DNA of 64,000 nucleotides, taken from Tychonema sp. LEGE 07203 (GTDB taxonomy: Bacteria > Cyanobacteriota > Cyanobacteriia > Cyanobacteriales > Microcoleaceae). The translations under genes were made by a program, and so were the position numbers. Where the stretch lies: NCBI RefSeq assembly GCF_015207285.1, contig NZ_JADEXD010000006.1:1-64000 (forward strand), in the 5' to 3' direction. The first letter of the stretch is position 1; each line of letters opens with the position of its first letter. Below the pieces are notes generated by a model, which worked only from the letters and a program-made list of their open reading frames with translations, made no database searches and was not told the DNA's origin. Shown here in pieces: positions 43,483-60,449 of the stretch.

Positions 43483-46400
43483 ATGACTAGAGAAAAAATG
43501 GCGATCGACAAAAAAGATATTCACATTTTAATTATTGACGATCGACCCGACAACCTCCGGTTTCTATCAAAGATATTGACGAAAGAAGGGTATAAAGTTC
43601 AGCGAGCAATTTCGGGAGAAATGGCGGTAAATGCAAACTTTACTGCGCTCCCAGACTTGATTTTACTAGATATAGCCATGCCCAAAATGAACGGCTACGA
43701 AGTCTGCGAACGACTGAAGGCTAACGAAAAAACTCGCGAAATTCCGGTGATTTTTTTGAGCGTTTTTAATGAAACTTTTCAGAAAATCAAAGCTTTTGAA
43801 GTCGGCGGAGTTGACTACATTTCTAAGCCTTTTCAAGTAGAAGAATTTTTACTGCGGATTGAAAGCCAACTGACTATACAACAGCTATCGAAACAGTTAA
43901 AACAGCAGAATGCCGAACTGCAACGAGAGGTAGAATTTCGCAAAATAACAGAACAAGCACTCAGGGAAAGCAAAGCGCAGTTGCAGAAATTGGCGGTTAG
44001 TATACCGGGAGTGATTTATCAATTCATGAAGCAGCTTGATGGAAATTTCAAGTTTGAATATATCAGTTATGCTTGTCGGGATATTTACGAATTAGAGAGC
44101 GAGGATATCTTGAAAAATCCTAATTTGTGCTTCGATCAAAATCATCCTGATGATCGAGAATATTTGGGTGAAAAGATTTGTGAGAGCGCTCGAACTTTAG
44201 AACCTTTTGCTTTTGAATGGCGGATTGTTACGCCGTCGGGGAAACTTAAATGGCTGCAATCTAATTCTCGACCGGAAAAGCGCAATAATGGCGATATTGT
44301 GTGGTATGGCGTAATTTTTGATGTCAGCGATCGCAAGCAAGCAGAAATAGAAACGGCATCAGCTAAATCTGCTTTGGAACGGCAAGTTCAGCGAGAGTTG
44401 CTGATTGCAAAAATAACTCAAGAAATTCGATCGAGCTTGCAGCCGGAAAAAATCTTTCAAACAGCCGCAACTCAAATCGGTCAGGCATTCGGTGTCAATC
44501 GCTGTTTGATTCATACTTACCTTACTACCCCCCAAGTCGATCTTCCTCTGGCGGCCGAGTATCTCGAACCCGAGTGCGAATCAATTCGGAACGTCATCGT
44601 TCCAATTTGGGGCAATCCTCACGTGGTACAAATGATGATCCAAGATCGGGCGATCGCCTCCGACGACGTTTACTCAGAGCCTCTTTTGCAAGCTGTTGAA
44701 TCGATTTGCCGCCTGGTTGGGTTGAAATCGATGCTGGCAATTCGCACTTCTTACCAGGGCAGGGCAAACGGCGCTATTTGTTTGCACCAGTGCGATCGCT
44801 ACCGGGAATGGACAACAGATGAAATCGACTTGTTAGAAGCTGTGGCGGGTCAAGTAGGAATTGCGATCGCTCAAGCTAAACTGATCGATCGAGAAAAAAA
44901 CCGACTCGCGCAGCTCGACCGGCAAAATAAACAGTTGCAAGCAGAAATTCGCACCCGCATCCGCGCCGAGCAAGCTCTGCAAGAATCCGAAGCAGAATTG
45001 CGGGCGATTTTTGCTGCCATGACTGACATAGTTTTGGTGAGAAATGCAGAAGGGCGCTGCATCAAAATCGCCCCGACAGCAGCGGTCAATTTGGTGAAAT
45101 CTCCCGGAGAAATGATTGGCAAAACTGCCCACGAAATCTTGCCGGAACCTGTGGCAGATTTGGTATTAAATACCATCCAACAAGTTCTCAAAACGAAGCA
45201 AAGCATCAATATTGAATATAGCTATACCCTCGGAGATCGCGAAGTTTGGCTCGATGCCAAAATTTCTGTGCTTTCTGCTGAATCAGTGATTATGGTAGCG
45301 CGAGATATTAGCGATCGCAAACTTGCAGAATCTGCACTCCGAGAAAGCCAGCACTTCATTCAGGCGATCGCCGATTCCAATCCCAACCTATTGTACGTTT
45401 ACGATTTAATTGAACAGCGAAATGTTTACTGTAACCGACAAATGGCTGCGATGCTCGGTTACAGCGCCCGAGAAGTACAAGATATGGGTACAGAAATGAT
45501 GTCAACGTTGTTGAACCCCGACGATTGGTCAGACTTTCTTGAAAGCCTCCAAAAAGTGGAGCGAGCCAAAGACGGCGATGTCATTGAATGTCAATACCGC
45601 ATGAAACACAAAAACGGTGAATGGCGGTGGATGCACAGTTGGGATACAGTATTTGTCAGAACAAATGACGGTAAACCCAAACAAATTCTCGGTACGGCTA
45701 ATGACATCACAGACCGCAAATTAGCGGCAGAAAAACTGCTAGCATCGCAGCAAAGAATCTCATTTTTATTGCAGCAAACGCCGATCGCAGTGATCGAGTT
45801 AAACCTGAATTTAGAAATTATCACTTGGAATCCGGCGGCGGAAACTATTTTTGGCTACAGCGAGTTGGAAGCGAAAGGGAGAGTCGCGGCCGATTTGATC
45901 GTACCTGAAAGCTACCGCGAGCAAGGAGCTGAGATTTTCAATCAGGGCTTGAGGGACAAATCCAGCGGCATTTGCGAAAATCTGACCAAAGACGGCAGAA
46001 TTATCCTCTGCGAGTGGTACAATACTCAGCTAATTGACGAAAACGGCAAGGCGATCGGCATCGCTTCAATGGCTGTAGATGTTACCGAACGCCAGCAAGC
46101 ACAAATTGAACTGCAAGAAAGTGCTTTGCGGCAAAGAGCGATCGCCCGGATCATTGAAAGAATGCGCCAGACATTAGATCTCCGAGAAATTTTTGAAGCC
46201 ACAACCCGAGAATTGCGCCAAACCATGAAGTGCGATCGAGTCGCCCTTTACCGTTTCAATCCTGACTGGAGCGGCGAATTTGTAGCCGAATCAGTTGACA
46301 GCAAGTGGGTTTCTTTCATCCAAGCACAGCAGGTCGATTCTAACTTCACTGAAGACGCTTTAGAAAGCGAAAAGTGCCTCGTCCAAAAATTCGATAGCAG

Positions 46401-48198
46401 CTCACAAGAAGTGCGGGATACCTATTTGCAAGACACCAAAGGCGGAGCCTACAACCGAAGTAAAACTTACCTTTGCGTCCCAGATATTTACAAGCAAGGC
46501 TTCAGTAATTGTTACATCCAACTCTTAGAAAAATTTCAAGCAAAATCCTACATTACCGTGCCAATTTTCTGCGGAGAAAAACTCTGGGGACTGCTAGCAT
46601 CCTATCAAAATTCAGCTCCCCGCCAGTGGAGCGAAGCTGAAATCAACGTTGCAGTTCATGTCGGCACTCAGCTAGGAGTTGCATTGCAGCAAGCCGAATT
46701 GCTCGCCCGCACTCAAAGGCAGTCAATGGAACTACTTAAATCCAAAGAAAACGCCGAAGTTGCCAACCGCGCCAAAAGCCAATTTCTCGCTTCCATGAGC
46801 CACGAACTCCGCACGCCTCTCAACGCCATTCTCGGTTTTTCCCAAGTCATGGCCCGCAACAGTTCAATCACGCAAGAACAAAAAGAATACATAGAAATTA
46901 TCAACCGCAGCGGCGAACATTTGCTGGAACTGATCAACGATGTGCTGTCAATGTCCAAAATAGAAGCAGGTCAAATCACCCTCAATCAAAGCCGCTTCAA
47001 CCTCTACAATCTTCTCAGCAGCCTCAGAGAAATGCTGCAACTAAAAGCCAACTCAAAAGGCTTGCGCCTGATCTTTGAAGATACCGGCGATTTGCCGCAG
47101 TACATTGAAACAGACGAAGCTAAGTTGCGACAAGTTTTAATTAACCTGCTCGGCAATGCGATTAAATTTACTCAACACGGAACGGTGACTTTGCGCGCCA
47201 GCAGCCAAGCAGAAAACAACGCAGCAAAACAAAAAGAAGCCCAATTATTTTTTGAAATTGCCGACACGGGCCCCGGCATTTCTCCCTCGGAAATTTCTAC
47301 TTTATTCCAGCCTTTCGTACAAACTGAAACAGGTCGCAAATCCATGCAGGGAACTGGTCTAGGATTACCCATCAGTCAACAGTTTGTCAAGATTATGGGA
47401 GGCGCTCTGGCTGTTGAAAGTCAACTGGATCGAGGCACAACTTTTACTTTTAATATCCGCGTTAACGTAGTAACAGAAAGTGACGAACAAGAAAAATCTG
47501 CCGTCAAACAAGTTATTGCTTTAGAACCCGGACAGCAAACCTACAGGATATTAATAGTTGAAGATGTAGCGGAAAATCGCCAACTGCTGCTCGAGCTCCT
47601 CGTACCGCTAGGATTTGAAGTTTCGGAAGCAATTAACGGTGAAGAAGGAGTTGCTTTGCACTCAATTTGGAAGCCGCACCTGATTTTAATGGATATGCTG
47701 ATGCCAGTTATGGACGGGTACGAAGCGACAAGACAGATCAAGCAAACTCCAGAAGGTAGAGAAACAATAATTATTGCCCTGACTGCCAGTGCTTTTGACG
47801 AACAGCGGCAAATAATTTTGTCTGCTGGTTGTGACGATTTGATCTGTAAACCGTTTCGTGAAGAGGTACTATTTGAAAAGATCGCGCATTACCTGAACCT
47901 GCGTTATATTTATGAGGAAGAAAACTCATCTACTTCTAGTTCAGCACCGAGACTGCTTCAAGATTTGACCGCCGAGGATTTGAGTGTAATGCCCGCAGAC
48001 TGGGTGGTCGATTTGTACCAAGCAGCACTTTGCGTTGATGACAACCGCATCCTGGGACTCATCGAGCAAATTCCCGAAACTGAGGCAAATCTGGCTAACG
48101 CTTTAACGGATTTAGTCGATAATTTTCGGATAGATATCATTATCGATTTAACTCAATTATATTATGATGAACGACCAGCCATTACCAGCGACTCCTAG
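43483..48198 (+). CDS. Hybrid sensor histidine kinase, REC-PAS-GAF-PASx3-GAF-HisKA-HATPase-REC
   Basis: A 1571-residue cytoplasmic kinase. Order by residue: receiver (13-135, D63 in LILLDIAMPKMNG), coiled coil, PAS (165-290), GAF (304-465), PAS (500-615), PAS (620-745), PAS (755-875), GAF (887-1072, with the phytochrome-like pattern FNPDWSGEFVAESVD but no obvious chromophore Cys motif checked), HisKA with H1107 in SHELRTPLN, HATPase (1209-1329, GTGLGLPIS), and a second receiver (1354-1470, D1404). A 100-residue acidic helical tail follows without an HPt His motif. The gene ends 35 bp inside the REC-adenylate cyclase gene, so translation is probably coupled and the kinase is the likely partner of that cyclase (inference). 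Its first GAF is similar to GAF2 of the kinase at 1067. Confidence 0.95.
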   Translation: MTREKMAIDKKDIHILIIDDRPDNLRFLSKILTKEGYKVQRAISGEMAVNANFTALPDLILLDIAMPKMNGYEVCERLKANEKTREIPVIFLSVFNETFQKIKAFEVGGVDYISKPFQVEEFLLRIESQLTIQQLSKQLKQQNAELQREVEFRKITEQALRESKAQLQKLAVSIPGVIYQFMKQLDGNFKFEYISYACRDIYELESEDILKNPNLCFDQNHPDDREYLGEKICESARTLEPFAFEWRIVTPSGKLKWLQSNSRPEKRNNGDIVWYGVIFDVSDRKQAEIETASAKSALERQVQRELLIAKITQEIRSSLQPEKIFQTAATQIGQAFGVNRCLIHTYLTTPQVDLPLAAEYLEPECESIRNVIVPIWGNPHVVQMMIQDRAIASDDVYSEPLLQAVESICRLVGLKSMLAIRTSYQGRANGAICLHQCDRYREWTTDEIDLLEAVAGQVGIAIAQAKLIDREKNRLAQLDRQNKQLQAEIRTRIRAEQALQESEAELRAIFAAMTDIVLVRNAEGRCIKIAPTAAVNLVKSPGEMIGKTAHEILPEPVADLVLNTIQQVLKTKQSINIEYSYTLGDREVWLDAKISVLSAESVIMVARDISDRKLAESALRESQHFIQAIADSNPNLLYVYDLIEQRNVYCNRQMAAMLGYSAREVQDMGTEMMSTLLNPDDWSDFLESLQKVERAKDGDVIECQYRMKHKNGEWRWMHSWDTVFVRTNDGKPKQILGTANDITDRKLAAEKLLASQQRISFLLQQTPIAVIELNLNLEIITWNPAAETIFGYSELEAKGRVAADLIVPESYREQGAEIFNQGLRDKSSGICENLTKDGRIILCEWYNTQLIDENGKAIGIASMAVDVTERQQAQIELQESALRQRAIARIIERMRQTLDLREIFEATTRELRQTMKCDRVALYRFNPDWSGEFVAESVDSKWVSFIQAQQVDSNFTEDALESEKCLVQKFDSSSQEVRDTYLQDTKGGAYNRSKTYLCVPDIYKQGFSNCYIQLLEKFQAKSYITVPIFCGEKLWGLLASYQNSAPRQWSEAEINVAVHVGTQLGVALQQAELLARTQRQSMELLKSKENAEVANRAKSQFLASMSHELRTPLNAILGFSQVMARNSSITQEQKEYIEIINRSGEHLLELINDVLSMSKIEAGQITLNQSRFNLYNLLSSLREMLQLKANSKGLRLIFEDTGDLPQYIETDEAKLRQVLINLLGNAIKFTQHGTVTLRASSQAENNAAKQKEAQLFFEIADTGPGISPSEISTLFQPFVQTETGRKSMQGTGLGLPISQQFVKIMGGALAVESQLDRGTTFTFNIRVNVVTESDEQEKSAVKQVIALEPGQQTYRILIVEDVAENRQLLLELLVPLGFEVSEAINGEEGVALHSIWKPHLILMDMLMPVMDGYEATRQIKQTPEGRETIIIALTASAFDEQRQIILSAGCDDLICKPFREEVLFEKIAHYLNLRYIYEEENSSTSSSAPRLLQDLTAEDLSVMPADWVVDLYQAALCVDDNRILGLIEQIPETEANLANALTDLVDNFRIDIIIDLTQLYYDERPAITSDS

Positions 48199-50191
48199 AG
48201 ACATTCTGATCGTTGACGATATGCCGGACAACTTGCGACTTTTATCGACTATGCTAGAATCCAACGGGTATCAAGTCAGGAAGGCGATTAACGGACAACT
48301 GGCTCTGCAAGGGGCACAAATTTCTCCTCCGGATCTCATTTTACTAGATATTAATATGCCGAAAATGAACGGCTACGAAGTTTGTGAGAATTTAAAAAAA
48401 AATGAAAAGACTAAAGATATTCCGGTAATTTTTATTAGTGCGCTAGATGACGTGATGGAAAAAGTTAAGGCTTTTCAAGTAGGGGGAGTGGATTATATTA
48501 CTAAGCCGTTTCAGGTAGAAGAAGTATTGGCCCGCGTGGAAAGCCAACTTTCTTTGCGTTCTTTGCAATCTAAACTGCAACAGCAAGCTAGGGAATTGCA
48601 CGATCGCAATTCGAGATTGCAGGCAGAAATTGCCGAACGGCAGCAGGCAGAAGAATCAATCCGGTTTTTGCTGGAAACGACGCGGGCGATCGGCGAAGCT
48701 GTAGACTTTCACTCAGCTTTAGAAGTAATTCTGCGTCAAGTGGGCGAAACAATCGGATGGGATGTGGGAGAAGCTTGGATTCCCAATGCAGAAAAAACTG
48801 TGCTGAAATCTGCCCGCGGCTGGTATGCTAGCAACCCCTGCATGGAACCCTTCCGCAGCCAAAGCGAACAACTGACATTTGCCATGAATATCGGGCTGCC
48901 GGGACGAGTTTGGGCATCCAAGGAACCGGAATGGGTAGAAGATATTTCTCGGGGCTACCCGGATTTTCTCCGAAGTGAAATAGCACGAGAACTCGGATTC
49001 AAAGCTGGTTTTGGCGTGCCGATTTTGGTAGGCGATGAAGTATTGGCGGTGCTAGTTTTCTTTCAAATTTTGCCTTGTCCGAAAGACGCGCGATTTATAG
49101 ACATTTTTAATGCAGTTGGCACTCAATTAGGTGCTTTGATTCAGCGAAAACAAGCTGAAGAATTGCTGCGGATTGCTGAAGAAAGATATCACAGCATTGT
49201 AGAAAATGCGATGGAAGGTATTTTTCAAAGCACTCCTTCTGGAGGCTATCTCAGCGCTAATCCAGCTTTGGCAAAGTTGTACGGTTACGACTCGCCAGCA
49301 GAACTGATGTCTAGCATTAAAAATATTGCCGAACAACTGTACGTTGACCCGGAACGCCGCCTGGAATTCGTGGCAGCTATGGATGCAGAAAATGCGGTTT
49401 CGGGGTTTGAATCTATGGTGTGCCGCAAGGACGGTAGCCGGATTTGGGTATCAGAAAATGTCCGTGCTGTTCGGGATTCACAAGGCGTTTTGATGTACTA
49501 TGAGGGCACTGTTTCTGACATTACAGAACGGAAATTGGCGCAAGAAGAGCTAAAAGTTCAACAGGAACAAACCGAGAAATTGCTATTGAATATTTTGCCC
49601 CAACCAATAGCAGAACGCTTGAAGGCAGAGCAAAGCACAATTGCTGACAGTTTTGCGGAAGTAAGTGTTTTATTTGCTGATATTGTTGGGTTTACTGGGC
49701 TGTCGGCGAGAATGTCTCCTACGGAGTTGGTAAAGCGATTGAACGTGATTTTTTCTCACTTCGACCAGTTAGCTGAGATGTACGGTGTGGAGAAAATTAA
49801 GACTATTGGCGATGCTTATATGGTTGTTGGGGGATTGCCTACGCCGAAAGAGGATCACGCTGGAGCGATCGCCCAAATGGCCTTGGGAATGCAGGCAAAA
49901 ATAGCCAAATTGTCGGCCGAGACAGGAGAAAAACTGGCAATTCGCATCGGCATCAATTCCGGGCCGGTGGTGGCGGGAGTGATTGGTGTTAGCAAGTTTA
50001 CCTATGATTTGTGGGGAGATACGGTGAATGTGGCATCGAGGATGGAGGGTACGGGTTTTGCCGGCAGAATTCAAGTTACTGATGTTACTTACGAGCTTTT
50101 GAAAGATAAGTATTTGTTTGAGATGCGAGGGGTGATTCCGGTGAAAGGTAAGGGAGATATGAGGACTTATTGGTTGTTGGAAAAAAAATAG
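48164..50191 (+). CDS. Response-regulator adenylate cyclase, REC-GAF-PAS-CHD
   Basis: A 675-residue class III cyclase that makes cAMP from ATP. Receiver at 12-130 (D62 in LILLDINMPKMNG), coiled coil (135-170), GAF (about 170-330), PAS (340-455), then a helical linker and the cyclase domain (495-670). Metal ligands are D506 (FADIVGF) and D550 (TIGDAY). Base-selecting residues are K546 and D615 (YDLWG), which indicates adenylate rather than guanylate cyclase. Transition-state residues N622 and R626 (NVASRM) are present. The start overlaps the kinase gene by 35 bp. Phosphorylation at D62 by the upstream kinase probably controls cAMP output (inference). Confidence 0.95.
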   Translation: MMNDQPLPATPRDILIVDDMPDNLRLLSTMLESNGYQVRKAINGQLALQGAQISPPDLILLDINMPKMNGYEVCENLKKNEKTKDIPVIFISALDDVMEKVKAFQVGGVDYITKPFQVEEVLARVESQLSLRSLQSKLQQQARELHDRNSRLQAEIAERQQAEESIRFLLETTRAIGEAVDFHSALEVILRQVGETIGWDVGEAWIPNAEKTVLKSARGWYASNPCMEPFRSQSEQLTFAMNIGLPGRVWASKEPEWVEDISRGYPDFLRSEIARELGFKAGFGVPILVGDEVLAVLVFFQILPCPKDARFIDIFNAVGTQLGALIQRKQAEELLRIAEERYHSIVENAMEGIFQSTPSGGYLSANPALAKLYGYDSPAELMSSIKNIAEQLYVDPERRLEFVAAMDAENAVSGFESMVCRKDGSRIWVSENVRAVRDSQGVLMYYEGTVSDITERKLAQEELKVQQEQTEKLLLNILPQPIAERLKAEQSTIADSFAEVSVLFADIVGFTGLSARMSPTELVKRLNVIFSHFDQLAEMYGVEKIKTIGDAYMVVGGLPTPKEDHAGAIAQMALGMQAKIAKLSAETGEKLAIRIGINSGPVVAGVIGVSKFTYDLWGDTVNVASRMEGTGFAGRIQVTDVTYELLKDKYLFEMRGVIPVKGKGDMRTYWLLEKK

Positions 50192-50491
50192 TCAGTAGTC
50201 AGTTGTCAGTTGTCAGTTGTCAGTTGTCAGTTGTTAGTTGTTAGTTGTCATTGGGAATTGGGAATTGGGAATTGTTAGCTGTTGACTGTTGACTGTTGAC
50301 TGTTGACTAATGACTACTGACTACTGACAACTGACAACTGACAACTGACTACTAACTACTGACTACTGACTACTGACTACTGACTACTGACTACTGACTA
50401 CTAACTACTGACTACTGACTACTGACTACTGACTACTGACTACTGACTTCTGCTATGATGAAAGTAGTTAACGAAACTTTACATAATAGCC
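50192..50491. repeat. Heptamer repeats forming a long inverted repeat
   Basis: Bases 50191-50235 are tandem GTCAGTT units and bases 50310-50450 are tandem GACTACT/GACAACT units in the opposite sense. A perfect 30-bp inverted repeat results: arms 50194-50223 and 50324-50353. In RNA this would fold into a long hairpin after the cyclase gene. Bases 50250-50310 are TTGGGAA and TTGACTG units. Confidence 0.8.
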
Positions 50492-51382
50492 GTGACTGCA
50501 CAAGAATTAGTATCTGCAACCAGCTTTGAAAAATTAATTTGGACTTGGAAAGGTCACAAAATCCAATATACCGTCCAAGGAACCGGCCGCCCTTTGGTGT
50601 TGATTCACGGGTTTGGGGCTTCTATAGGACATTGGCGGCAAAATATCCCCGCACTCGCGGCGGGCGGCTACCGGGTATTTGCGCTGGACTTGTTGGGATT
50701 CGGGGCTTCTGGCAAACCTGCGCTTGATTATACGCTGGAATTGTGGGAAGAATTGCTGACAGATTTCTGGACAGAATTTGTGCGGGAACCGGCGGTATTT
50801 GTCGGAAATTCGATCGGCGCTTTGCTGAGTTTGATGGTAGTCGCCAACCATCCAGAAATATCTGCAGGCGGTGTGTTGATCAACTGTGCCGGCGGGCTCA
50901 ACCACCGGCCGGAGGAACTGAATTTCCCGCTGCGATTAGTGATGGGGACTTTTAGTAAGTTAGTTCGATCGCCCCTCGTCGGCCCGTTTGTCTTCAACAA
51001 CATCCGCCAAAAACACCGCATCCGCAACACCCTGCGCCAAGTCTACGGGAACCGCGAAGCCATCACCGACGAACTCGTAGAACTCCTCCACGCCCCCTCC
51101 TGCGAACCCGGAGCTCAACAGGTGTTTGCCTCGATTCTCACAGCCCCAGCAGGCCCTCAACCGTCAGAATTGCTGCCAAAGGTCGATCGTCCGTTACTGG
51201 TACTTTGGGGTGCAGATGACCCCTGGACTCCCATCGCCGGCAGCAAAATTTACCAAGAATTGGCCGCCAACGATAAACCAGTGAAATTTGTTTCAATTCC
51301 CAACACGGGCCACTGTCCCCACGACGAGCGGCCCAGTGAAGTCAACGCTCTGATTTTGGACTGGATGCAGGAATTGAAGTGA
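50492..51382 (+). CDS. Alpha/beta hydrolase
   Basis: A 296-residue alpha/beta hydrolase. PLVLIHGFGASIGHWRQNIP is the oxyanion-hole region, FVGNSIGALLSLMV carries nucleophile S107 (G-N-S-I-G), LLVLWGADDPWTP the acidic residue and FVSIPNTGHCPHDERP the catalytic His. GTG start. Close to chlorophyllide/haloalkane-type and plant-like plastid hydrolases by pattern; the substrate is unknown. It follows the cyclase gene across the heptamer repeats. Confidence 0.9.
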   Translation: MTAQELVSATSFEKLIWTWKGHKIQYTVQGTGRPLVLIHGFGASIGHWRQNIPALAAGGYRVFALDLLGFGASGKPALDYTLELWEELLTDFWTEFVREPAVFVGNSIGALLSLMVVANHPEISAGGVLINCAGGLNHRPEELNFPLRLVMGTFSKLVRSPLVGPFVFNNIRQKHRIRNTLRQVYGNREAITDELVELLHAPSCEPGAQQVFASILTAPAGPQPSELLPKVDRPLLVLWGADDPWTPIAGSKIYQELAANDKPVKFVSIPNTGHCPHDERPSEVNALILDWMQELK

Positions 51383-51510
51383 AATATTTCTGGTGAATGC
51401 AAGGGAGAAGGCGATCGAGCAAAACCCTTGCATTCCAAAGGTTCTACCTCGCTCCACCGCACCTGCACCCAGGCTGGGAAAGACTCAAAAAAAAACTTTT
51501 GCAAAAACTA

Positions 51511-51539
51511 TTGACAGCTTCCACCGAGTCGGCTATATT
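51511..51539 (+). promoter_or_regulatory. Consensus sigma70-type promoter
   Basis: TTGACA (51511-51516), a 17-bp spacer, and TATATT (51534-51539). Six of six and five of six consensus positions match, the best promoter in the window. Transcription would start near 51545-51548. Confidence 0.75.
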
Positions 51540-51545
51540 GATGGA

Positions 51546-51612
51546 CGTGTGAGGAGCGAACCAGAAAAAGCACCGAGACGAAACACGGCCAGTCGTCGGT
51601 GCTTTTTCTGTG
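51546..51612 (+). ncRNA. Candidate small RNA, about 67 nt
   Basis: The region between the consensus promoter and a perfect 14-bp stem has no start-codon frame of any length. It begins near GTGTGAGGAGC (51547-51557), then GAACC, then the terminator hairpin. GTGTGAGGAG is exactly complementary to CTCCTCACAC, the conserved unpaired core reported for the cyanobacterial sRNA Yfr1 (ACUCCUCACAC). On the opposite strand the same bases would read as the Yfr1-like core after the hairpin, but no U-tract follows there, so the plus strand is preferred. Identity is not established. Confidence 0.55.
51563..51609 (+). terminator. Rho-independent-type terminator of the candidate sRNA
   Basis: AGAAAAAGCACCGA (51563-51576) pairs perfectly with TCGGTGCTTTTTCT (51596-51609) around a 19-nt loop. 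The T-run lies within the 3' arm. It is nearly symmetric, so it could also act on the minus strand. Confidence 0.75.
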
Positions 51613-51643
51613 AAAAGGCACTTTTAAGAATTGTAGGTTAGTT

Positions 51644-51797
51644 GAAATCCTCGGCGGTTAGAAACAGCGTCTATACAAACCGTTTCCGCCTCTGGAGATT
51701 AAGAAATATAGAATTAGAGAGAAATCCTCGGCGGTTAGAAACCGCCTCTTGTCAAACCATGTCCGCCTCCGCGGACTAAGAAATATAGAATTTGAAA
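51644..51797. repeat. 77-bp tandem repeat, two copies
   Basis: Copy 1 is 51644-51720 and copy 2 is 51721-51797. Both begin GAAATCCTCGGCGGTTAGAA and end AAGAAATATAGAATT plus a few purines. Each carries a small GGCGGTT..AACCGCC-type hairpin. The middle is more diverged. Confidence 0.8.
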
Positions 51798-52113: not shown

Positions 52114-52995
52114 TCAACGATCGCCCAAAACAAACTCTTCGATCGCCGCCGCCACCCCATCTTCCTCCACATCCGGCGCTACCCAATCAGCACCAGCCTT
52201 CACGCCGTCAGGAGCATTCCCCATCGCCACGCCCACACCCGCGTAGGAAATCATTTCCAGATCGTTAAAATTGTCGCCGATCGCCATCACCTGAGCCGGC
52301 TGCAAACCCAACAATTCCTCGGCTAAATACTGCACCCCATCTCCCTTACTCGCCAAAGGATGCGTCGCTTCAAAAAAAGTAGCCACCGATCGAGTCAAAT
52401 AAAGCTCCGCAGGCGTGTAGCGCTTCCGCATACTGCTGAGCAAGCCGTCAAGTGCCTCCGGATTCTCGCACAAAGCCAAAACCTTCGTCGGTTCCCCCGG
52501 AATATCTCGCCGCAAATCTTTAATTACAATTGGTTCAATGCCCGATCGTTGAGCATAAATTCGGGTAGCTGCGGTAATTTGGGGCACGTAAAGTTTGTCG
52601 TCAATGTAGAAATGGATCGAAAGGATCGATCGCGAATGCACTTCTTCAAAATAATCTAACAGTTGCAAAGCAGTTTGTTTCGACAGCGACAAGTGTCGCA
52701 GCCGCTTTTGAGTCGCCGGATCTTGAATCCACGCGCCCTGGTAGCAAATCAGCGGCAAAGTTGAGCCGATTTCTGAGTGAAAACGCAAAGCCGACTGGTA
52801 CATCCTGCCCGTCGCAACGGCCACTTTCACTCCCCGCGACTCAGCAGCCAAAATTGCCTGCTTGACGGGTTTTCGGATTTCATTTGACAAACCTGCGATC
52901 GTGCCGTCGATATCCAGTACCAGCAGTTTAATCTCTGCGGTGCCAAAAGCGCGATCGGCCGCAGTAGCTGGATTTGAGGCAATTATATTCTGCAT
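52114..52995 (-). CDS. Cof-type HAD-superfamily phosphatase
   Basis: A 293-residue HAD hydrolase of the Cof (IIB cap) group. Motif I is LLVLDIDGTIAGL (nucleophile Asp at about 28), motif II VAVATGRM, then the cap (about 100-215), the Lys region LASKGDGVQYLAEELLGL and motif III/IV AIGDNFNDLEMISYAGVGVA. It dephosphorylates small phosphorylated metabolites such as sugar phosphates or FMN/PLP; the actual substrate is unknown. It is the only gene on the minus strand in this stretch and is convergent with the candidate sRNA region. Confidence 0.93.
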   Translation of the reverse strand: MQNIIASNPATAADRAFGTAEIKLLVLDIDGTIAGLSNEIRKPVKQAILAAESRGVKVAVATGRMYQSALRFHSEIGSTLPLICYQGAWIQDPATQKRLRHLSLSKQTALQLLDYFEEVHSRSILSIHFYIDDKLYVPQITAATRIYAQRSGIEPIVIKDLRRDIPGEPTKVLALCENPEALDGLLSSMRKRYTPAELYLTRSVATFFEATHPLASKGDGVQYLAEELLGLQPAQVMAIGDNFNDLEMISYAGVGVAMGNAPDGVKAGADWVAPDVEEDGVAAAIEEFVLGDR

Positions 52996-53481
52996 GATTT
53001 TTTGGAGATTTTAGCTGTTGATTTGCACGCACCAGTTTATTTTGGCACTGGCGATCGGCTTTGTTTGCATCTAGATTGTCTGTTATGTTTGAGGAGGACA
53101 TTGGAAGAGCCAGAAAAGCCAGAGCACAAAAGGATGGAGAGGATTTGACTGCCAACGGGAACAAATCATTGAAATATACAATAATTTAAATGCCAGTAGT
53201 ACCTCCGCCGATCGCCCAGAACTCTCTCAAGAGCGCCTCAAAACACTTTTTGTCTGAGTCCCGATCGCAGCCGGTTTACCGATTCGCTTACCCCTCCTCT
53301 TGATGCGATCTTGATTTACACTTACCTCACAGTATCGCAGGCAATATCTCAACCATTATCTCACCATTCATTCCCGCTTATTCAATTGAAAATTCTCATT
53401 CAAAAACAATCATTTATTTCCCGTTGATTCAGCTAGCATTCTCAACTTAAACTTTTACTTTTTCCAACACCCTCAAACAGC
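52996..53481. other. Intergenic region before the Ser/Thr-histidine kinase
   Basis: I see no gene with a credible start. A short plus-strand trace (about 53140-53262, CQREQIIEIYNNLNASSTSA and a stop) could be the tail of a lost gene. The last 150 bp are A+T-rich and presumably promoter. Confidence 0.45.
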
Positions 53482-56400
53482 ATGATTGCCATCCCCGGAT
53501 ACCGCATTGACGGAGAAATTTATACAAACCATCGCACAGTTATTTATCGAGGAATGCAGCTTGACGAACAAAAACCCGTTATCCTCAAAACCCTCGCCCA
53601 GCCCTACCCCACCCCAGCACAAATAGCCCAACTCCTGCACGAATCCGAAATTATTAAAAATTTGAATTTGCCAGGAATAGTACAATTTTATCGACTCGAA
53701 AAATACAATCACTTTCCTGTTTTAATTTTAGAAGATTTTGGCGGCATTTCTCTAAAAGAATTTCTCAGCAACAACCAGCTAGACTTACAACAATTTTTGC
53801 AAATCGCCATCAAGCTAGCAGAAACTCTCGGCCAACTCCACGAGCACCACATCATCCACAAAGATATTAAACCGAGCAATATTATTGTCAATATCGAGAC
53901 AGGGGATGTCAAAATTGCTGATTTTGCGATCGCCTCCCTGCTACCGGGCGAAAACCCCGCCCCTGGCCATCCCAATTTACTCGAAGGCACCCTCGCCTAT
54001 ATGTCTCCAGAACAAACTGGACGGATGAATCGGGCGATCGACTACCGCACCGATTTTTATTCTCTCGGCATCACCTTTTATGAAATGCTCTGCGGCGAAT
54101 TGCCTTTTAGTGCGATCGATCCGATGGAATTAGTACACTGCCATCTTGCCAAAAATCCAGTTACTCCTTGCGAGAAAATAAACCACAAAATAAACAGCAC
54201 AATCAATCAACCAAAAATCCCTCAAGTCGTTTCCGATCTCGTCATGAAACTCTTAGCAAAAACCGCCGAAGACAGGTATCAAAGTGCTTTGGGAATTTGG
54301 TACGACTTAGAAAAATGTCTCGCCGGGCTGCAAACCACAGGCGAAATTCCTCACATCGCCCTCGGCGAGCAAGATCGATCGACTCACCTGCAAATTTCCC
54401 AAAAACTTTACGGGCGAGAAACCGAAGTTAATCAGCTTCTGAGTACCTTCGATCGCATAAAACGCGGCAACACAGAAATAATCTTAATTTCCGGTTGTGC
54501 AGGTTTGGGAAAATCCTGTTTAGTCTATGAAATTCACAAATCAATACTGCGGGAAAACGGGTATTTTATCGACAGCAAATTTGAAAAATTTAAGCGCGAT
54601 ATTCCCTACGCTTTTTTACTCCAAGCTTTTCAAGACTTGTTGCGGCAAATCCTCACAGAAACAGCCGCCAAACTTCAAGTTTGGAGGCAGAAAATTTTAA
54701 ATGCCCTGGGCGGCAACTGCCAAGTAATTATTGAAGTAATTCCAGAAGTAGAAATGATTGTCGGGCAGCAGCCCCCAGTACCAGATTTAGGAGCAAATGA
54801 ATCTCAAAATCGCTTTAACTTAGTATTTCAAAAATTCATCCGCGTCTTTACTCAAAAAGCACACCCGCTGGTAATTTTTCTCGAAGACTTGCAGTGGGTA
54901 GATTCAGCATCGCTCAAGTTAATCCAACTGCTAGCAACAAACCTCGAAAGTCAATATTTATTAATAATTGGAGCCTATCGAGAACAAGAAGTAGATGCAA
55001 ATCATCCCGTAATGCTCACCGCCGAAGCAATTAGAAAAGCAGGCGGAACACTCAGCGCGATTGCCCTTTCGCCTTTAGATATTAACAGCGTCAATCAATT
55101 CGTTGCAGATACTCTCAACTGCCCGCCAGAAAAATCGCTAGATTTAGCAGAATTGCTTTTGCAAAAAACAGGAGGAAATCCATTTTTCTTAACTCAACTG
55201 CTGAAATATCTTTACTCACAAAAATTGCTACAATTTAAATCGGCACCTGCCAATAATTCTGTTATTAATAAAGCCGAACCTAACATTGATGAGTCGCGCC
55301 CCAAAACAGCAGCTCCAGTTTGGAAAAAATGCGAAATCACAGGTGAGTGGCAGTGGGATATCGAACAAATCCAAGAAATAGCAATAACTGACAATGTTGT
55401 AGAATTGACGATCTACAACATTCAGAAACTTTCAGAAACTACGCAGGAATTGCTCAAATTAGCCGCTTGTATTGGCAACAAATTTGATTTAGGAATTCTT
55501 TCAAAAATCTGCAAAAAATCTCTAATTGCCACAGCAACCGACCTCTGGGAAGCACTTCAGTCCGGTCTGATTTTGCCCGTAAATAACGCCTACAAAATTC
55601 CGCTTGCACTAGCAGCCAGCACAGAAGTAACAGACAAAATATCTAGAGATTTTACAGATGAATTTTCCCTGCCAGTAACTGATGCTGCGGGCGCAACTTA
55701 TAAATTTTTGCACGAGCGAGTTCAGCAAGCCGCTTACGCTTTAATATCCGAATCTCAGAAACAAGAAACCCATCTCGAAATCGGCAGATTTCTGCTGCAA
55801 AACGCACCTCCAGAGCAATTGGAAGACTATGTTTTCGATACAGTCAACCAACTAAATGCCGCCCGAAAAATCATCAGCAGTGAATCAGAAAAATTTCAAT
55901 TATGCCAATTAAATTTAATTGCAGGGCGCAAAGCAAAAGCCAGTGCAGCTTACGAACTCGCCCTCAAATATTTAACCGCCGGTATTGAATTGCTTCCGGC
56001 AGAAACTTGGCAAACAAACTACGATTTGACTCTGGCACTTTACGAGTCAGCGGCAGAAGCAGCTTACCTCAATGCCGAATTTGCACAAATGCAAACATGG
56101 GCAGAAATTGTCCTGCAGCACGCAAAAAATGAACTAGACAAAATCAAAGTTTTTGAAATCAGAATCACAGCTTGTGCGATGCAAACCCAACTGCAAGAAT
56201 CAGTCAAAATTGGTCTAGAAGCACTAAAAATGTTGGGAATAAACTTTCCTGAATCGCCAACTCCCCTCCACATTCAGCAAGCACTTACCAAAACCGCAGC
56301 TTATTTAACCGGAAAAAAAATAGAAGATTTAATTGACTTGCCGGCGATGACAAATCCGCGCAAATTAGCAACTATGCGCGTGCTTTCCAGTATGTTTTCA

Positions 56401-58989
56401 GCTACGTTTATAGTTGAACCCGTGCTGCTGCCGCTAATAGTGTGCGAGCAAGTTCATTTGTCGATTAACTACGGAAATTCTGCTTTTTCTGCTTTCGGTT
56501 ATGCTAATTACGGAGCAATTTTGAAAAGAATAGTTAGAGATATTGAATCGGGCGATCGCTTCGGTCAATTAGCTTTAAATTTGATCGATCGACTAAATGC
56601 TTTAGAATTCAAAAGCAAGACCCTTAATTTAGTAGCATTCGTTTTGATGCACGGCAAGCATCACGTTAAAGACACTTTACCGCTGTTAGAGGAAGCCTAT
56701 CAAAACGCCCTCGAAAATGGTGATTTAGAATCTGTCGGATATGCTGCCGTAAATATTTGTCAGTCTTTATATTTCATCGGTCAAGAATTGCCGCAACTCG
56801 AACAAAAAATGGCAAATTACAACCATTTATTATTGCAACTCAAGCAAGAAACGGTATTGACTTGGAATCAAATATATCGGCAAACAGTTTTGCAATTGAT
56901 GGGAAACTTGGAAAATTCCGAGATTTTATTAAGTGTAGCTTGCAGCGAAAAAAAAATGTTGCCGCTGCTTGTGAAAGCTAACGATCGCGTCGGTCTCCAG
57001 CACTTTTATTTGCAAAAATTAATATTGTCATATTTGTTGGGAAATGTCGAGCAAGCATTACAAAATGCAGCGCAAGCCGAAGTTTATTTAGACGGAGTAG
57101 CGGGCTCGATCAATGTTTCTGAATACCATTTTTACGATGCTCTTGCCCGACTATCAGCCTATCCGATCGCAACAAGTGAGGAACAAGAAGAGCATCTTTT
57201 TTACATTAGGAGCAACCTCAAAAAACTGGAAAAAAAAGCGCTATCTGCGCCGATGAACCTCCGACACAAATGCGACTTGATTGCTGCCGAAACAGCGCGA
57301 ATTTTGGGGAACATTGTTACAGCAATGGAATATTACGACTGTGCAATTTCCGGAGCGCAAGAAAACGGATACATACAGGTACAAGCACTCGCAGCAGAAT
57401 TGGCAGGAGCATTTTATCTATCCATAGGACGAGAAAAAATCGCTAAAACTTACTTGACAGAAGCGCGTTATTGCTACGAGCGCTGGGGAGCGGCAGCCAA
57501 AGTAAGACATTTAGAATCAAAATACTGGCAGTTGCTAACTTCAGCCTCGATTTCAACTAATATCGAAACTCACAAATCTACGAGCAGCGCTTGCACTACG
57601 AGCGGCGGTGCAGGGATGCTAGACATCACAACCGCAGTCAAAGCATCACAGACATTAGCCAGCGAAATAGTTCTAGACAAATTGCTGGCAAAAATGATGA
57701 AAATTGTGATTGAAAATGCCGGGGGAGAAAAAGGTTTTTTAATAATAGAAAAAAATCAAAGATGGGTGATTGAAGCATCAGGATTTGTAGATGCCGATCG
57801 CGTTGCTGTCATGCAATCAATTCCCATAGATTTTGTAGATGAGGAGCAAAAAGTAACTTTGCTAGCAGTTGCAGTCGTTAATTACGTCGCCCGCACCCAG
57901 GAAAGTATAGTTTTAAACGATGCCAGCCGCGAAGGACAATTTACTCGCGCACCTTATATACTTGCCGTTCAACCTAAATCAATTCTTTGTACTCCGTTAA
58001 TCCATCAAGGCAAACTGAGCGGCATTTTATATTTAGAAAACAATCTGACTACAGGTGCTTTTACGCCAGACAGATTAGAAATATTAAAACTGCTGTCTTC
58101 TCAAATTTCTATCTCGATCGAAAACGCCCAACTTTACACAAACTTGCAGCAATTCAATCTGAATCTCGAAAAGTTAGTACAGCAACGTACTTCGGAGCTA
58201 TCGCAAACTTTAGAAGACTTAAAGTCTGCCCAAAAGAAACTGGTTGAATCGGAAAAAATGGCCGCCCTTGGTGGGTTGGTTGCAGGTGTTGCCCACGAAA
58301 TCAATACTCCCATCGGCATCGGCATCACTGCCGCTTCTTTGCTGGCGGAAAAAGTCACGAAATTTTTTGAGCTTTACAGCAAGGGGCAAATTAAACGTTC
58401 CGAGTTAGAAAAGTTTCTGGATACGGCCATGCAAAGCAGTAATATGATCTTATCAAACCTGACGCGGGCGGCTGACTTGATTCACAGTTTCAAAGAAGTG
58501 GCTGTAGATCAGTCGAGCGAATTAAAACGCACGTTTAATGTGAAAAACTATCTAGAAGAGATTTTGACATCTTTAACCGCCAAACTAAGACAAACCAAAC
58601 ACAAAATAGAGATTAGGTGCGATGAAAATATTGTACTGGACAGTTACCCGGGCGTGCTGTGTCAAATTGTGACAAATCTGGTGTTGAATTCCTTAATTCA
58701 CGCTTACGATGCAGAAGACGAAGGGATTCTGGCTTTTGATTTTAAACTAGAGGGCGATCGGCTAATATTTGAATATGCCGATAACGGCAAAGGAATTACC
58801 CCTGAAAATCTCAGTAAAATCTTTGAACCGTTTTTTACTACCAAAAGAGGCAAGGGCGGCACAGGATTGGGACTGCACATTATTTACAACCTCGTCACGC
58901 AAAAACTAAAAGGCACAGTTACCTGCGAAAGTCAAAGGAACAAAGGCACAAGATTTATGATTGAATTTCCGGCTCAAATTAGCAATTAG
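53482..58989 (+). CDS. Ser/Thr kinase-AAA ATPase-GAF-histidine kinase (HstK-like)
   Basis: An 1835-residue two-kinase fusion of a class common in filamentous cyanobacteria. Protein kinase domain (1-270): K36 (VILKTL), HKDIKPSN with D128, D147 in ADFAIAS (DFA instead of DFG), and MSPEQTGRMNR. AAA/ORC-type ATPase: Walker A GCAGLGKS at 338-345 (K344), FLEDLQWVDSASLKLIQLL as Walker B. A long helical TPR-like region (about 780-1370), GAF (1392-1555), coiled coil, HisKA with H1605 (GVAHEINTPIG) and HATPase (GTGLGLHI). No receiver of its own: the REC-adenylate cyclase encoded 47 bp downstream is the obvious target (inference). The HKD and DFA variants occur in this family and may lower kinase activity. 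It lacks membrane segments. Confidence 0.93.
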   Translation: MIAIPGYRIDGEIYTNHRTVIYRGMQLDEQKPVILKTLAQPYPTPAQIAQLLHESEIIKNLNLPGIVQFYRLEKYNHFPVLILEDFGGISLKEFLSNNQLDLQQFLQIAIKLAETLGQLHEHHIIHKDIKPSNIIVNIETGDVKIADFAIASLLPGENPAPGHPNLLEGTLAYMSPEQTGRMNRAIDYRTDFYSLGITFYEMLCGELPFSAIDPMELVHCHLAKNPVTPCEKINHKINSTINQPKIPQVVSDLVMKLLAKTAEDRYQSALGIWYDLEKCLAGLQTTGEIPHIALGEQDRSTHLQISQKLYGRETEVNQLLSTFDRIKRGNTEIILISGCAGLGKSCLVYEIHKSILRENGYFIDSKFEKFKRDIPYAFLLQAFQDLLRQILTETAAKLQVWRQKILNALGGNCQVIIEVIPEVEMIVGQQPPVPDLGANESQNRFNLVFQKFIRVFTQKAHPLVIFLEDLQWVDSASLKLIQLLATNLESQYLLIIGAYREQEVDANHPVMLTAEAIRKAGGTLSAIALSPLDINSVNQFVADTLNCPPEKSLDLAELLLQKTGGNPFFLTQLLKYLYSQKLLQFKSAPANNSVINKAEPNIDESRPKTAAPVWKKCEITGEWQWDIEQIQEIAITDNVVELTIYNIQKLSETTQELLKLAACIGNKFDLGILSKICKKSLIATATDLWEALQSGLILPVNNAYKIPLALAASTEVTDKISRDFTDEFSLPVTDAAGATYKFLHERVQQAAYALISESQKQETHLEIGRFLLQNAPPEQLEDYVFDTVNQLNAARKIISSESEKFQLCQLNLIAGRKAKASAAYELALKYLTAGIELLPAETWQTNYDLTLALYESAAEAAYLNAEFAQMQTWAEIVLQHAKNELDKIKVFEIRITACAMQTQLQESVKIGLEALKMLGINFPESPTPLHIQQALTKTAAYLTGKKIEDLIDLPAMTNPRKLATMRVLSSMFSATFIVEPVLLPLIVCEQVHLSINYGNSAFSAFGYANYGAILKRIVRDIESGDRFGQLALNLIDRLNALEFKSKTLNLVAFVLMHGKHHVKDTLPLLEEAYQNALENGDLESVGYAAVNICQSLYFIGQELPQLEQKMANYNHLLLQLKQETVLTWNQIYRQTVLQLMGNLENSEILLSVACSEKKMLPLLVKANDRVGLQHFYLQKLILSYLLGNVEQALQNAAQAEVYLDGVAGSINVSEYHFYDALARLSAYPIATSEEQEEHLFYIRSNLKKLEKKALSAPMNLRHKCDLIAAETARILGNIVTAMEYYDCAISGAQENGYIQVQALAAELAGAFYLSIGREKIAKTYLTEARYCYERWGAAAKVRHLESKYWQLLTSASISTNIETHKSTSSACTTSGGAGMLDITTAVKASQTLASEIVLDKLLAKMMKIVIENAGGEKGFLIIEKNQRWVIEASGFVDADRVAVMQSIPIDFVDEEQKVTLLAVAVVNYVARTQESIVLNDASREGQFTRAPYILAVQPKSILCTPLIHQGKLSGILYLENNLTTGAFTPDRLEILKLLSSQISISIENAQLYTNLQQFNLNLEKLVQQRTSELSQTLEDLKSAQKKLVESEKMAALGGLVAGVAHEINTPIGIGITAASLLAEKVTKFFELYSKGQIKRSELEKFLDTAMQSSNMILSNLTRAADLIHSFKEVAVDQSSELKRTFNVKNYLEEILTSLTAKLRQTKHKIEIRCDENIVLDSYPGVLCQIVTNLVLNSLIHAYDAEDEGILAFDFKLEGDRLIFEYADNGKGITPENLSKIFEPFFTTKRGKGGTGLGLHIIYNLVTQKLKGTVTCESQRNKGTRFMIEFPAQISN

Positions 58990-59036
58990 TTATTATAGCG
59001 CCAGTTTTAATATAGTTTGATTTAGGAGATAAATAA

Positions 59037-60449
59037 ATGTCAGAAGCTAGTAAATATCTGTTCGCTGCGGGCGATGACGAATTAATAGTGGCGGGCGATG
59101 ATGAATTAATATTTGCTGAAGAAGACGAAGCGGAAGACAAGCCAATTGAAGCCTTTTGGAAAATCTTAATTGTAGACGATGAAATAGAAATTCACAATAT
59201 TACAAAACTAGCTTTAAATGAATTTATATTTGAAAATAAATCCCTGAAATTTATTAGCGCTTTTTCTGGAAAAGAAGCTAAAGAAATTGTCCAAACCCAT
59301 TCAGATATAGCATTGATTTTACTGGATGTAGTGATGGAAACAGAAGAGGCAGGCTTGGAAGTAGTAAAATACATCCGCGATATTTTAGACAATAAAATAG
59401 TGCGGATTATTTTGCGTACCGGACAGCCGGGACAAGTGCCAGAAGATGTCGTAATTGTCAGCTACGATATTAATGATTATAAGACTAAAACGGAGCTAAC
59501 AAACAAAAAGTTATTTACCACGGTAGTAACAGCGCTGAGAGCATTTCGCGCCCTGACTCAAATCGAAGCCAGCAAAAGCGAACTCGAAAAAATTGCAACT
59601 GCTTCCGCCCGCTTTGTTCCCCGCGAATTTTTAAAATTTCTCAAGATTGAAAGCATTGTTGATGCCAGATTGGGAGACTCTGTACAGGCAGAAATGACGA
59701 TTATGTTTGCGGATATTCGTTCATTTACAAGTCTATCAGAAAGTATGTCTCCTAGAGAAAACTTTGAGTTTCTCAACTCTTATTTGAGCCGAGTTGGTCC
59801 AGTTATCCGCCAGTACAACGGTTTTATAGATAAATACATTGGTGACGGAATTATGGCGCTGTTTCCTAACTGTGCTGAAGATGCGGTGCAGGCAGCAATT
59901 GAGATGCAGCAGCAAGTTAAAATTTATAACAGACACAGGCAAAATAGCGGCTATCAACCTATTTCGATAGGGATTGGTTTGCATACGGGAACTTTAATGT
60001 TGGGTACTATTGGCGAAGCGGAACGGATGGAAAGTACGGTAATTTCTGATGCTGTGAATTTAGCAGCGCGGGTGGAAGGATTGACAAAGCTTTACGGAGT
60101 CAGTATTGTAGCTAGCGTCCAAACTCTTTGCCGGATAGACGATCCACAAAATTATAAGTGTCGGTTTCTCGATCGCGTTCAAGTAAAAGGAAAACAAACA
60201 CCTGTTGCTGTATTTGAAATTTACGACGGCGACTCGGATATGATGATCGAACTAAAAGGACAAACCCAAACTGATTTTGAACAGGGCATTTTTTTTCACT
60301 ACCAGCAGCAATTCGCGCAAGCAAGACAAATGTTTTTGCGCGTGTTGCAAGTCAACAAGTATGATAAGGCTGCACAGTTTTATGCAGAACGTTGCGATAT
60401 GTTGATGAAGAATGCAGTCATTCTGACTCTGGAAGGAATTGAAATTTAG
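59037..60449 (+). CDS. Response-regulator adenylate cyclase, REC-CHD
   Basis: A 470-residue class III cyclase. An acidic N-terminus carries two copies of GDDELI (about 12-26). The receiver (42-180) has D97 (LILLDVVMETEEAG) and the conserved Lys in NDYKTKTEL. The cyclase domain (215-400) has metal ligands D226 (FADIRSF) and D270 (YIGDGIM), base-selecting K266 and T334, and N341/R345 (NLAARVEG): the Lys/Thr pair points to adenylate cyclase. A C-terminal helical repeat (FHYQQQFAQARQMFLRVLQV) looks TPR-like. Strong Shine-Dalgarno (TAGGAGA) before the ATG. It is encoded 47 bp after the HstK-like kinase, probably in one transcript, so the pair is a likely phosphorelay to cAMP. Confidence 0.93.
   Translation: MSEASKYLFAAGDDELIVAGDDELIFAEEDEAEDKPIEAFWKILIVDDEIEIHNITKLALNEFIFENKSLKFISAFSGKEAKEIVQTHSDIALILLDVVMETEEAGLEVVKYIRDILDNKIVRIILRTGQPGQVPEDVVIVSYDINDYKTKTELTNKKLFTTVVTALRAFRALTQIEASKSELEKIATASARFVPREFLKFLKIESIVDARLGDSVQAEMTIMFADIRSFTSLSESMSPRENFEFLNSYLSRVGPVIRQYNGFIDKYIGDGIMALFPNCAEDAVQAAIEMQQQVKIYNRHRQNSGYQPISIGIGLHTGTLMLGTIGEAERMESTVISDAVNLAARVEGLTKLYGVSIVASVQTLCRIDDPQNYKCRFLDRVQVKGKQTPVAVFEIYDGDSDMMIELKGQTQTDFEQGIFFHYQQQFAQARQMFLRVLQVNKYDKAAQFYAERCDMLMKNAVILTLEGIEI

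Follow-up and report, generated by a model that had tools for sequence, protein, structure and literature searches.

The two kinase–cyclase gene pairs described here probably encode two distinct two-component systems, each with a response regulator that produces cAMP. A sequence-only reading had proposed that each kinase feeds its cyclase, and for the second pair this is well supported by comparison, since its histidine kinase core (HK3) and the receiver of its cyclase (REC4) show a linked distribution. The window (the whole stretch of 64,000 nucleotides that was analyzed) comes from a mat-forming cyanobacterium with Microcoleus as its close named relatives, and the following features of it are referred to below.

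43483..48198, + strand: pair 1 kinase P0001, 1571 aa ORF (REC, PAS, GAF, HisKA, HATPase_c, REC, tail; H1107, D63, D1404)
46177..46686, + strand: second GAF domain of P0001 (aa 899-1068), cyanobacteriochrome-like, Cys1010 then Tyr1011
47962..48195, + strand: helical tail at the C-terminus of P0001 (aa 1494-1571), without a Pfam family and, in the window copy, without histidine
48164..48198, + strand: overlap of the P0001 and P0002 genes, 35 bp
48164..50191, + strand: pair 1 cyclase P0002, 675 aa ORF (REC with D62, GAF, PAS, class III cyclase)
50191..50452, no strand: heptanucleotide repeat arrays, beginning at the end of P0002
53482..58989, + strand: pair 2 kinase P0003, HstK-like, 1835 aa (Ser/Thr kinase, AAA_16, repeat region, GAF, His kinase core)
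58162..58986, + strand: HK3, the His kinase core of P0003 (aa 1561-1835; H1605)
59037..60449, + strand: pair 2 cyclase P0004, 470 aa (receiver REC4 at about aa 31-200, with D97, and class III cyclase)
60449..60749, no strand: heptanucleotide-type repeat arrays, beginning at the end of P0004

Gene pairs and their genomic setting

The four-ORF layout and the residues named earlier were confirmed, with all four ORFs on the + strand, the 35 bp overlap in pair 1 and a gap of 47 bp between P0003 and P0004. Class III cyclases work with two metal-binding aspartates, a pair of base-selecting residues and an Asn/Arg pair. Both P0002 and P0004 scored over the cut-off for PF00211 and have the two metal Asp residues, a Lys with an Asp or Thr as base selectors and the Asn/Arg pair, so that the claim of complete, ATP-type sites held for residues and Pfam alike. 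The Pfam architecture of P0002 is REC-GAF-PAS-Guanylate_cyc, and its sites (D62, D506, K546, D550, D615, N622 and R626) were kept in 21/21 aligned relatives. That of P0004 is REC-Guanylate_cyc, with D97, D226, K266, D270, T334, N341 and R345; these sites, D97 included, were kept in 18/18 aligned relatives, and K266 lies opposite a Glu of chain 2w01. We regard both proteins as probable cAMP-making enzymes, a prediction from their sequences.

The order of genes within each pair is conserved. A kinase lies immediately upstream of the P0002 relative in all 22 congeners with upstream sequence and of the P0004 relative in all 19 (window excluded in both counts). Across the source genome, a same-strand upstream kinase gene accompanies 8 of the 10 REC-cyclases that are not fused to a kinase, versus 2 of the 18 cyclases without a receiver or fused kinase (Fisher p 0.0005). 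This count used 147 of 154 HATPase_c matches, 16 hand-picked of 149 REC matches and an arbitrary distance cut-off, with cyclase C77 falling just outside. Kinase–cyclase adjacency exceeds chance.

The nearness of the two pairs to each other, on the other hand, looks incidental. The source genome has 33 class III cyclase ORFs (36 matches, with two C225 fragments and the second C344 domain discounted), among which 1.6 cyclase pairs within 10.1 kb are expected and 6 were observed, that of the window included. Two cyclases within 10 kb being expected among 33, we dropped their closeness as a meaningful feature. It had been suggested that this locus may integrate inputs by two routes, which the comparisons do not support; as a functional locus summing two signals into a single cAMP pool, it appears distinctly improbable. 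The spacing between the pairs is indeed 2.7-3.5 kb in 11 congener stretches, close to the 3.3 kb of the window. However, the pairs stand apart in five congeners: on different contigs in G007, G011, G018 and G022 (if the window's order held, the contig ends would put them no less than about 22 kb from each other), and with about 12 kb between P0002 and P0003 in G015. The individual pairs are in place in all five. The two genes between the pairs, an alpha/beta hydrolase and a HAD hydrolase on the other strand, are unrelated, and all 33 cyclase ORFs share the cell.

The kinase core and receiver of pair 2

P0003 matched Pkinase, AAA_16, GAF and HATPase_c over the Pfam cut-offs and HisKA below its cut-off. 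Ser/Thr and His kinase domains thus occur in one chain, with the H1605 motif present, as in the HstK family. H1605 was kept in 20 of 22 aligned relatives, a set defined by a score threshold that also admits a G033 fusion lacking the core, a different HstK-like protein and part of a split gene; in L068 and L075, both congeners, P0003 is itself split by a frame change. In some Microcoleus and Tychonema, a short kinase of 376-413 aa precedes the REC-cyclase, and it corresponds to P0003 1258-1366 joined to about 1543-1835. Because relatives without the Ser/Thr kinase, AAA and GAF modules kept the core and the REC-cyclase, the kinase core of P0003 is probably the partner of P0004. Control of P0004 through the P0003 Ser/Thr kinase, in place of His-Asp transfer, seems to us very improbable. 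In G033 (L099), P0003 1-1566 with its Ser/Thr kinase-AAA-GAF module is indeed joined directly to a P0004-like cyclase, but the core and REC-cyclase occur without a Ser/Thr kinase in four congeners and at five named loci (sets that share some strains), and D97 is invariant among the aligned relatives. The short-kinase strains provide natural deletion variants for the role of the Ser/Thr kinase in an HstK protein.

The association of HK3 with REC4 extends across cyanobacteria. Of the 30 closest HK3-type kinases (the top-scoring of 93 matches, each from a different genome), 27 had a REC4-type gene downstream, as did 34 of the remaining 63, giving 61 of the 93 overall; one of these 61 (L350) is a fragment in an odd position. 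Among 15 other kinases of the source genome, which were its next-best HK3 matches rather than a random draw and included one (L211) with only 357 bases of sequence after it, none had such a gene. All these counts cover the downstream side only. No REC4 gene followed 29 of the 93 kinases, 15 of which form a single group of 808-824 aa kinases (family f44), and a further three were cut by a contig end. Viewed from the receiver, 80 named REC4 loci had an HK3-type kinase upstream in 37 cases, downstream in three and on neither side in 38, with two cut; the distance rule of this count overlooks L170, where the kinase gene has a 4 bp overlap. The conserved adjacency is what a cognate pair would display, and it gives good support to the view that HK3 and REC4 are subfamilies that travel together, in a link that is not universal. 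We gave no weight to a mirror-tree correlation of 0.88, which is uncontrolled for common descent.

What follows REC4 varies. The outputs of 67 adjacent HK3-REC4 pairs were cyclase (22), kinase (18), MarR (12), HD-GYP (9), GGDEF (5) and unassigned (1), as labeled by regular expression or BLAST, with 13 proteins checked with Pfam; the MarR label was added only after the 80-locus survey, and L174, labeled HD-GYP in the pair tree, carries a "?" in that survey. A tree of 66 pairs requires nine output changes, of which one leads to cyclase (support 39/88; 38% of bootstrap trees), and the cyclase output may therefore fit a single, weakly supported origin. Pair 2 is a recurrent kinase-receiver unit in which the output has been exchanged, probably for cAMP.

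In the mechanism that we favor for pair 2, the P0003 core would autophosphorylate at H1605 and hand the phosphoryl group on to D97 in P0004, whose receiver would reorient the class III dimer to convert ATP to cAMP. We infer this transfer, the sign of the control and the signals, whereas the comparisons show gene order, conservation, residues, the joint distribution of HK3 and REC4 and the loss of the input modules. The rest of P0003, roughly 1550 aa made up of the Ser/Thr kinase, AAA, repeats and GAF, would serve as an exchangeable input. The HK3-REC4 core would be an ancient cassette that, possibly a single time, exchanged its output for a class III cyclase in the Microcoleus-Oscillatoria-Coleofasciculus-Spirulina lineages. 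From genome comparison, the link names a partner that can be tested for one of 33 class III cyclases, most of which are without assigned inputs. It also presents a natural series in which a constant core is combined with changing inputs (Ser/Thr kinase, GAF) and changing outputs (cAMP, c-di-GMP, DNA binding).

The overlapping operon of pair 1

Pair 1 is a conserved operon with overlapping ends: the P0001 and P0002 genes overlap in all congeners with an unsplit P0001, the gene being split in one (L094). P0001 contains REC, PAS, GAF, HisKA and HATPase_c domains by Pfam, and among aligned relatives H1107 was kept in 21/21, D63 in 19/21 (two gaps) and D1404 in 20/21 (one unread). The best PDB chains for its second GAF were 6bhn, 5zoh and 3w2z. 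C965, C998 and C1010 were kept in 21/21 relatives, and C1010 aligns with the Cys of the cyanobacteriochrome chains, which we take to be the chromophore Cys; the His after this position is absent from the domain, Tyr1011 standing there in 21/21 relatives. A GAF type common to P0001 and the CBS kinase at position 1067 proved real (56% identity over 168 aa). Light, redox and nutrient inputs had been suggested for the locus. Light is plausible for P0001 only, by way of the second GAF and predicted bilin binding, and redox and nutrient signals are without evidence here.

The C-terminal tail of P0001 is a less obvious element. Pfam detected no Hpt domain after the last receiver, and the window's copy of the tail has no His. 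A sequence profile search of the PDB with the tail found no HPt, the best match (E 0.023) being an unrelated centrin; profile comparison (hhalign) with the 10 Hpt domains of the source genome gave 0.2%. Foldseek returned no significant match (E 2.2 or worse), with HPt chains among the weak rows (1sr2, E 8.4), and by VIA 1sr2 reached Z 5.2, below FliS rows (best Z 6.3). A REC gene lies within 200 nt downstream of P0001-type tails in 24 of 38 cases, which is no more than suggestive.

Since an intact receiver follows the kinase and there is no HPt His, the phosphate may end at D1404 of P0001. It is accordingly worth weighing, although we think it unlikely, that other kinases feed the pair 1 cyclase while P0001 serves its own C-terminal or other receivers, the overlap meaning co-expression only. 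Outside the genus, two of the four P0002 homologues examined have an adjacent kinase, the others having a lone REC gene or no kinase; the source genome has 154 HATPase_c and 10 Hpt matches; and AphC is reported to act on CyaC (PMC4284465). Against this stand the upstream kinase in every congener examined, the overlap wherever P0001 is unsplit and the rule of an upstream kinase for REC-cyclases of the source genome. For pair 1, then, the claim that the kinase feeds the cyclase is supported by the order of overlapping genes kept within the genus and tempered by the missing HPt histidine and by the homologues outside it. We favor a hybrid kinase with a cyanobacteriochrome-like GAF that would be translationally coupled to the REC-GAF-PAS-cyclase, phosphate most likely reaching D62 from H1107, either directly or by way of a separate HPt protein.

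Taking both pairs together, we tentatively offer a broader proposal, which we think somewhat doubtful as a whole. A cassette whose usual output in the sampled cyanobacteria is c-di-GMP synthesis, DNA binding of the MarR type or a second kinase would have been rewired once to cAMP in one filamentous group, so that homologous sensors report to different messengers by species, and the His-less P0001-type tail would be a new docking module for the next gene's receiver.

Relation to known systems

CyaC, the adenylate cyclase of Anabaena and Spirulina, presumably carries out phosphotransfer within one chain. Both pairs resemble it in having a His kinase, a receiver and a class III cyclase in series but differ in that kinase and REC-cyclase are separate ORFs. 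The source genome also encodes a one-chain REC-GAF-GAF-HK-REC-cyclase of CyaC-like layout, to which P0004 is weakly similar (28%). C204 and C317 of the source genome, both one-chain Cache-HAMP-HK-REC-cyclases, share 66% identity with P0004 in the catalytic domain but only 31-34% in the receiver; P0004 looks like a C204/C317-like catalytic domain placed after a receiver of a different type.

The CdgK/CdgS genes of Anabaena PCC 7120 are a proven hybrid kinase/REC-GGDEF operon, in which the kinase CdgK has a C-terminal Hpt domain whose His is essential (PMC9927289). Pair 1 likewise places a hybrid PAS/GAF kinase in an operon with a second-messenger-making response regulator, but the P0001 tail is helical and His-less and the output is a class III cyclase instead of GGDEF. 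HstK (Alr2258) and Pkn40/Pkn41 of Anabaena, like P0003, combine Ser/Thr and His kinases in one GAF-containing protein (PMC2176072, the domain content of HstK being taken from a title in its reference list); P0003 adjoins a receiver with cyclase output. In the parts consulted of the literature on DUF3369/MarR response regulators, Microcoleus adenylate cyclases and cyanobacteriochrome-cyclases, we found no description of the HK3-REC4 cassette, which does not prove its absence. REC-DUF3369 regulators with HD-GYP or EAL outputs have receivers of the same subfamily as P0004 (50-63% identity), but P0004 keeps only the start of DUF3369 (the first 31 of 168 positions, below the cut-off) before the cyclase begins.

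Conservation and separation of the two gene pairs

ORF reading of the window confirmed the four genes of the sequence-only reading, with the 35 bp overlap in pair 1 and the 47 bp gap in pair 2, and every residue it had named was correct when checked in the translated proteins. The genes (Pfam domains in brackets) and associated repeats are as follows:

43483-48198, + strand: P0001, hybrid histidine kinase (REC, PAS, GAF, HisKA, HATPase_c, REC)
48164-50191, + strand: P0002, cyclase of pair 1 (REC-GAF-PAS-cyclase)
50191-50452: heptanucleotide repeat array, starting at the end of the P0002 gene
53482-58989, + strand: P0003, HstK-like kinase (Ser/Thr kinase-AAA_16-GAF-HisKA-HATPase_c)
59037-60449, + strand: P0004, cyclase of pair 2 (REC-cyclase)
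60449-60749: heptanucleotide repeat array, starting at the end of the P0004 gene

The P0003 HisKA domain falls below the Pfam cut-off; its H1605 motif is nonetheless plain. Both cyclases carry the residues for metal binding, base selection and transition-state stabilisation that mark ATP-type enzymes. Lys266 of P0004 aligns with a Glu of chain 2w01, the guanylyl cyclase Cya2. A histone-deacetylase-family protein (41275-42234), an alpha/beta hydrolase (50492-51379) and a HAD hydrolase (52117-52995) adjoin the pairs. The nearest named genomes are Microcoleus.

Relatives of P0002 (≥82% identity) were present in 23 of the 24 genomes of the genus, own genome counted, and relatives of P0004 (≥85%) in 21. 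A P0001-type kinase lay upstream of P0002 in all 22 congeners with upstream sequence, and a P0003-type kinase upstream of P0004 in 19/19 (13 full length, two split, four short). The pair 1 overlap was 35 bp in 17 of 21 relatives and 29, 53 and 68 bp in three whose starts are uncertain; one with a split P0001 was left out of the measurement. The spacing between pairs was 2.7-3.5 kb in 11 fetched congener stretches and about 12 kb in G015, and the pairs sat on different contigs in G007, G011, G018 and G022, where contig ends imply at least about 22 kb if the window order held; in the remaining congeners contig ends intervene. Each pair is a conserved unit, and the two jointly are not. Six cyclase pairs within 10.1 kb were seen in this genome (1.6 expected), and two cyclases this close are to be expected in it. 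The proposal of one combined locus feeding cAMP by two routes is therefore unsupported, the pairs being separate in several congeners and their nearness expected by chance.

Cyclase ORFs number 33 in this genome. A same-strand upstream kinase gene preceded 8 of the 10 with a receiver and no fused kinase vs. 2 of the 18 with neither (Fisher p 0.0005), and five further ORFs are one-chain kinase-cyclases; the kinase-to-REC-cyclase arrangement is thus a recurring theme, with pairs 1 and 2 being two of the eight. On contig C328, another HstK-like gene has a REC-PAS-cyclase nearby.

The P0003 kinase core and the P0004 receiver

We followed the histidine kinase core of P0003 (HK3, aa 1561-1835) and the P0004 receiver (REC4, aa about 31-200). 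Among 15 other matches to HK3 in this genome at E 1e-25, none exceeded 35% identity; of 15 other kinases of this genome checked for the linkage, none had a REC4-type gene downstream. Relatives outside the genus reached 46-73%, and at E 1e-70 there were 93 matches in 68 of 388 genomes of the class. When the top-scoring loci were taken from 30 different genomes, a REC4-type gene came directly after HK3 in 27 (exceptions L227, L230 and L234); it lay downstream in 34 of the other 63 (absent in 26, cut by a contig end in three), or 61/93 overall with 29 lacking it. Fifteen of these 29 kinases form one group of 808-824 aa proteins belonging to family f44 (L307-L316, L318, L320, L322, L325, L333). 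L227 and L230 are followed by ORFs whose first residues are similar, and at L295, also without an adjacent receiver gene, the following ORF matches the Ser/Thr kinase domain. Conversely, 80 named REC4 loci had HK3 upstream in 37, downstream in three and not at all in 38, with two cut; pattern labels gave those 38 as 17 EAL, 11 HD-GYP, four kinase, two cyclase and four unlabelled.

The domain behind REC4 varies among cyclase, GGDEF, GGDEF-EAL, HD, kinase and MarR (Pfam, 13 proteins). By pattern, GGDEF was commonest (22) in the 34 pairs from the other 63 loci, followed by kinase (six), MarR (four) and no label (two). A P0004-type receiver with a MarR winged helix behind it (about 400 aa), an unusual response-regulator output, was labelled by pattern in 12/67 pairs, those of HK3 loci L239, L246 and L252 among them; Pfam confirmed it in three. 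A tree of 66 pairs, leaving out those 34, required nine output changes; by output, changes numbered six for kinase, four for GGDEF, two for MarR, one for HD-GYP and one to cyclase, the last weakly supported (39/88; bootstrap range 1-2). A full-length HstK-like kinase also precedes a REC-cyclase, at 226-762 bp, in Oscillatoria PCC 10802, O. princeps, Coleofasciculus LEGE 07092 and Spirulina CS-785/01. That each kinase feeds its own cyclase, as the sequence-only reading held, gained most for pair 2: given the HK3-REC4 linkage, P0003 probably feeds P0004.

Short P0003-type kinases (376-413 aa) occur at five named loci (L126-L128, L130 and L131, the last from Tychonema BBK16) and in four fetched congener stretches, partly from the same strains. 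In them P0003 residues 1258-1366 run straight into about 1543-1835, and the Ser/Thr kinase, AAA and GAF modules have disappeared. Since the five named loci form one clade (support 100/99), these modules were probably lost once. In G033, the one-chain protein L099 has a counterpart of P0003 aa 1-1566 (47% identity) running straight into a cyclase that is 63% identical to P0004, and it lacks both the kinase core and the receiver; apparently the same Ser/Thr kinase-AAA-GAF input is here wired to a cyclase.

Pair 1 and known systems

P0002 homologues outside the genus are 59-64% identical; in G033 and G026 their genes overlap by 4 bp with that of a preceding hybrid kinase, and in G025 one copy follows a lone REC gene and the other has no kinase. 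On the gene order conserved within the genus, it is moderately likely that P0001 feeds P0002. After its second receiver P0001 ends in a helical tail of 78 aa (47962-48195; AlphaFold mean pLDDT 91) that matched no Pfam family. Of 60 genomes from the order, 48 encode such a tail; this genome has it at nine places (E 0.01), P0001 among them, and a REC gene starts within 200 nt of 24 of 38 tails; the tail is a widespread domain of cyanobacterial hybrid kinases, often directly before a REC gene.

The second GAF domain of P0001 (46177-46686) is cyanobacteriochrome-like. Cys1010 is kept in 21/21, with Tyr instead of His directly after it; Cys998 is also conserved, as is Cys965, within a stretch missing from the PDB matches. 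Light input through this domain is plausible.

The P0004 catalytic domain is 66-67% identical to those of one-chain kinase-REC-cyclases (C204 and C317 of this genome and two other genomes), whereas the receivers share 30-34%, so P0004 looks like a Cache-type catalytic domain set behind a REC4 receiver. C204 is a Cache-HAMP-HK-REC-cyclase in one chain; C254, a one-chain gene of CyaC-like type, stands further from P0004 (28%).

For pair 1 the nearest proven case is Anabaena CdgK/CdgS, in which the step from the hybrid kinase to the output protein depends on an Hpt His (PMC9927289). P0001, unlike CdgK/CdgS, has no Hpt His: its tail in the window contains no His, and one or two occur in the tails of 7 of 21 relatives. 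Transfer to P0002 would therefore have to be direct or via a separate Hpt; there are 10 Hpt matches in the genome, one of them within the window, in P0005. Both pairs are best read as two-component control over a class III cyclase, a known kind of system, here split between separate genes.
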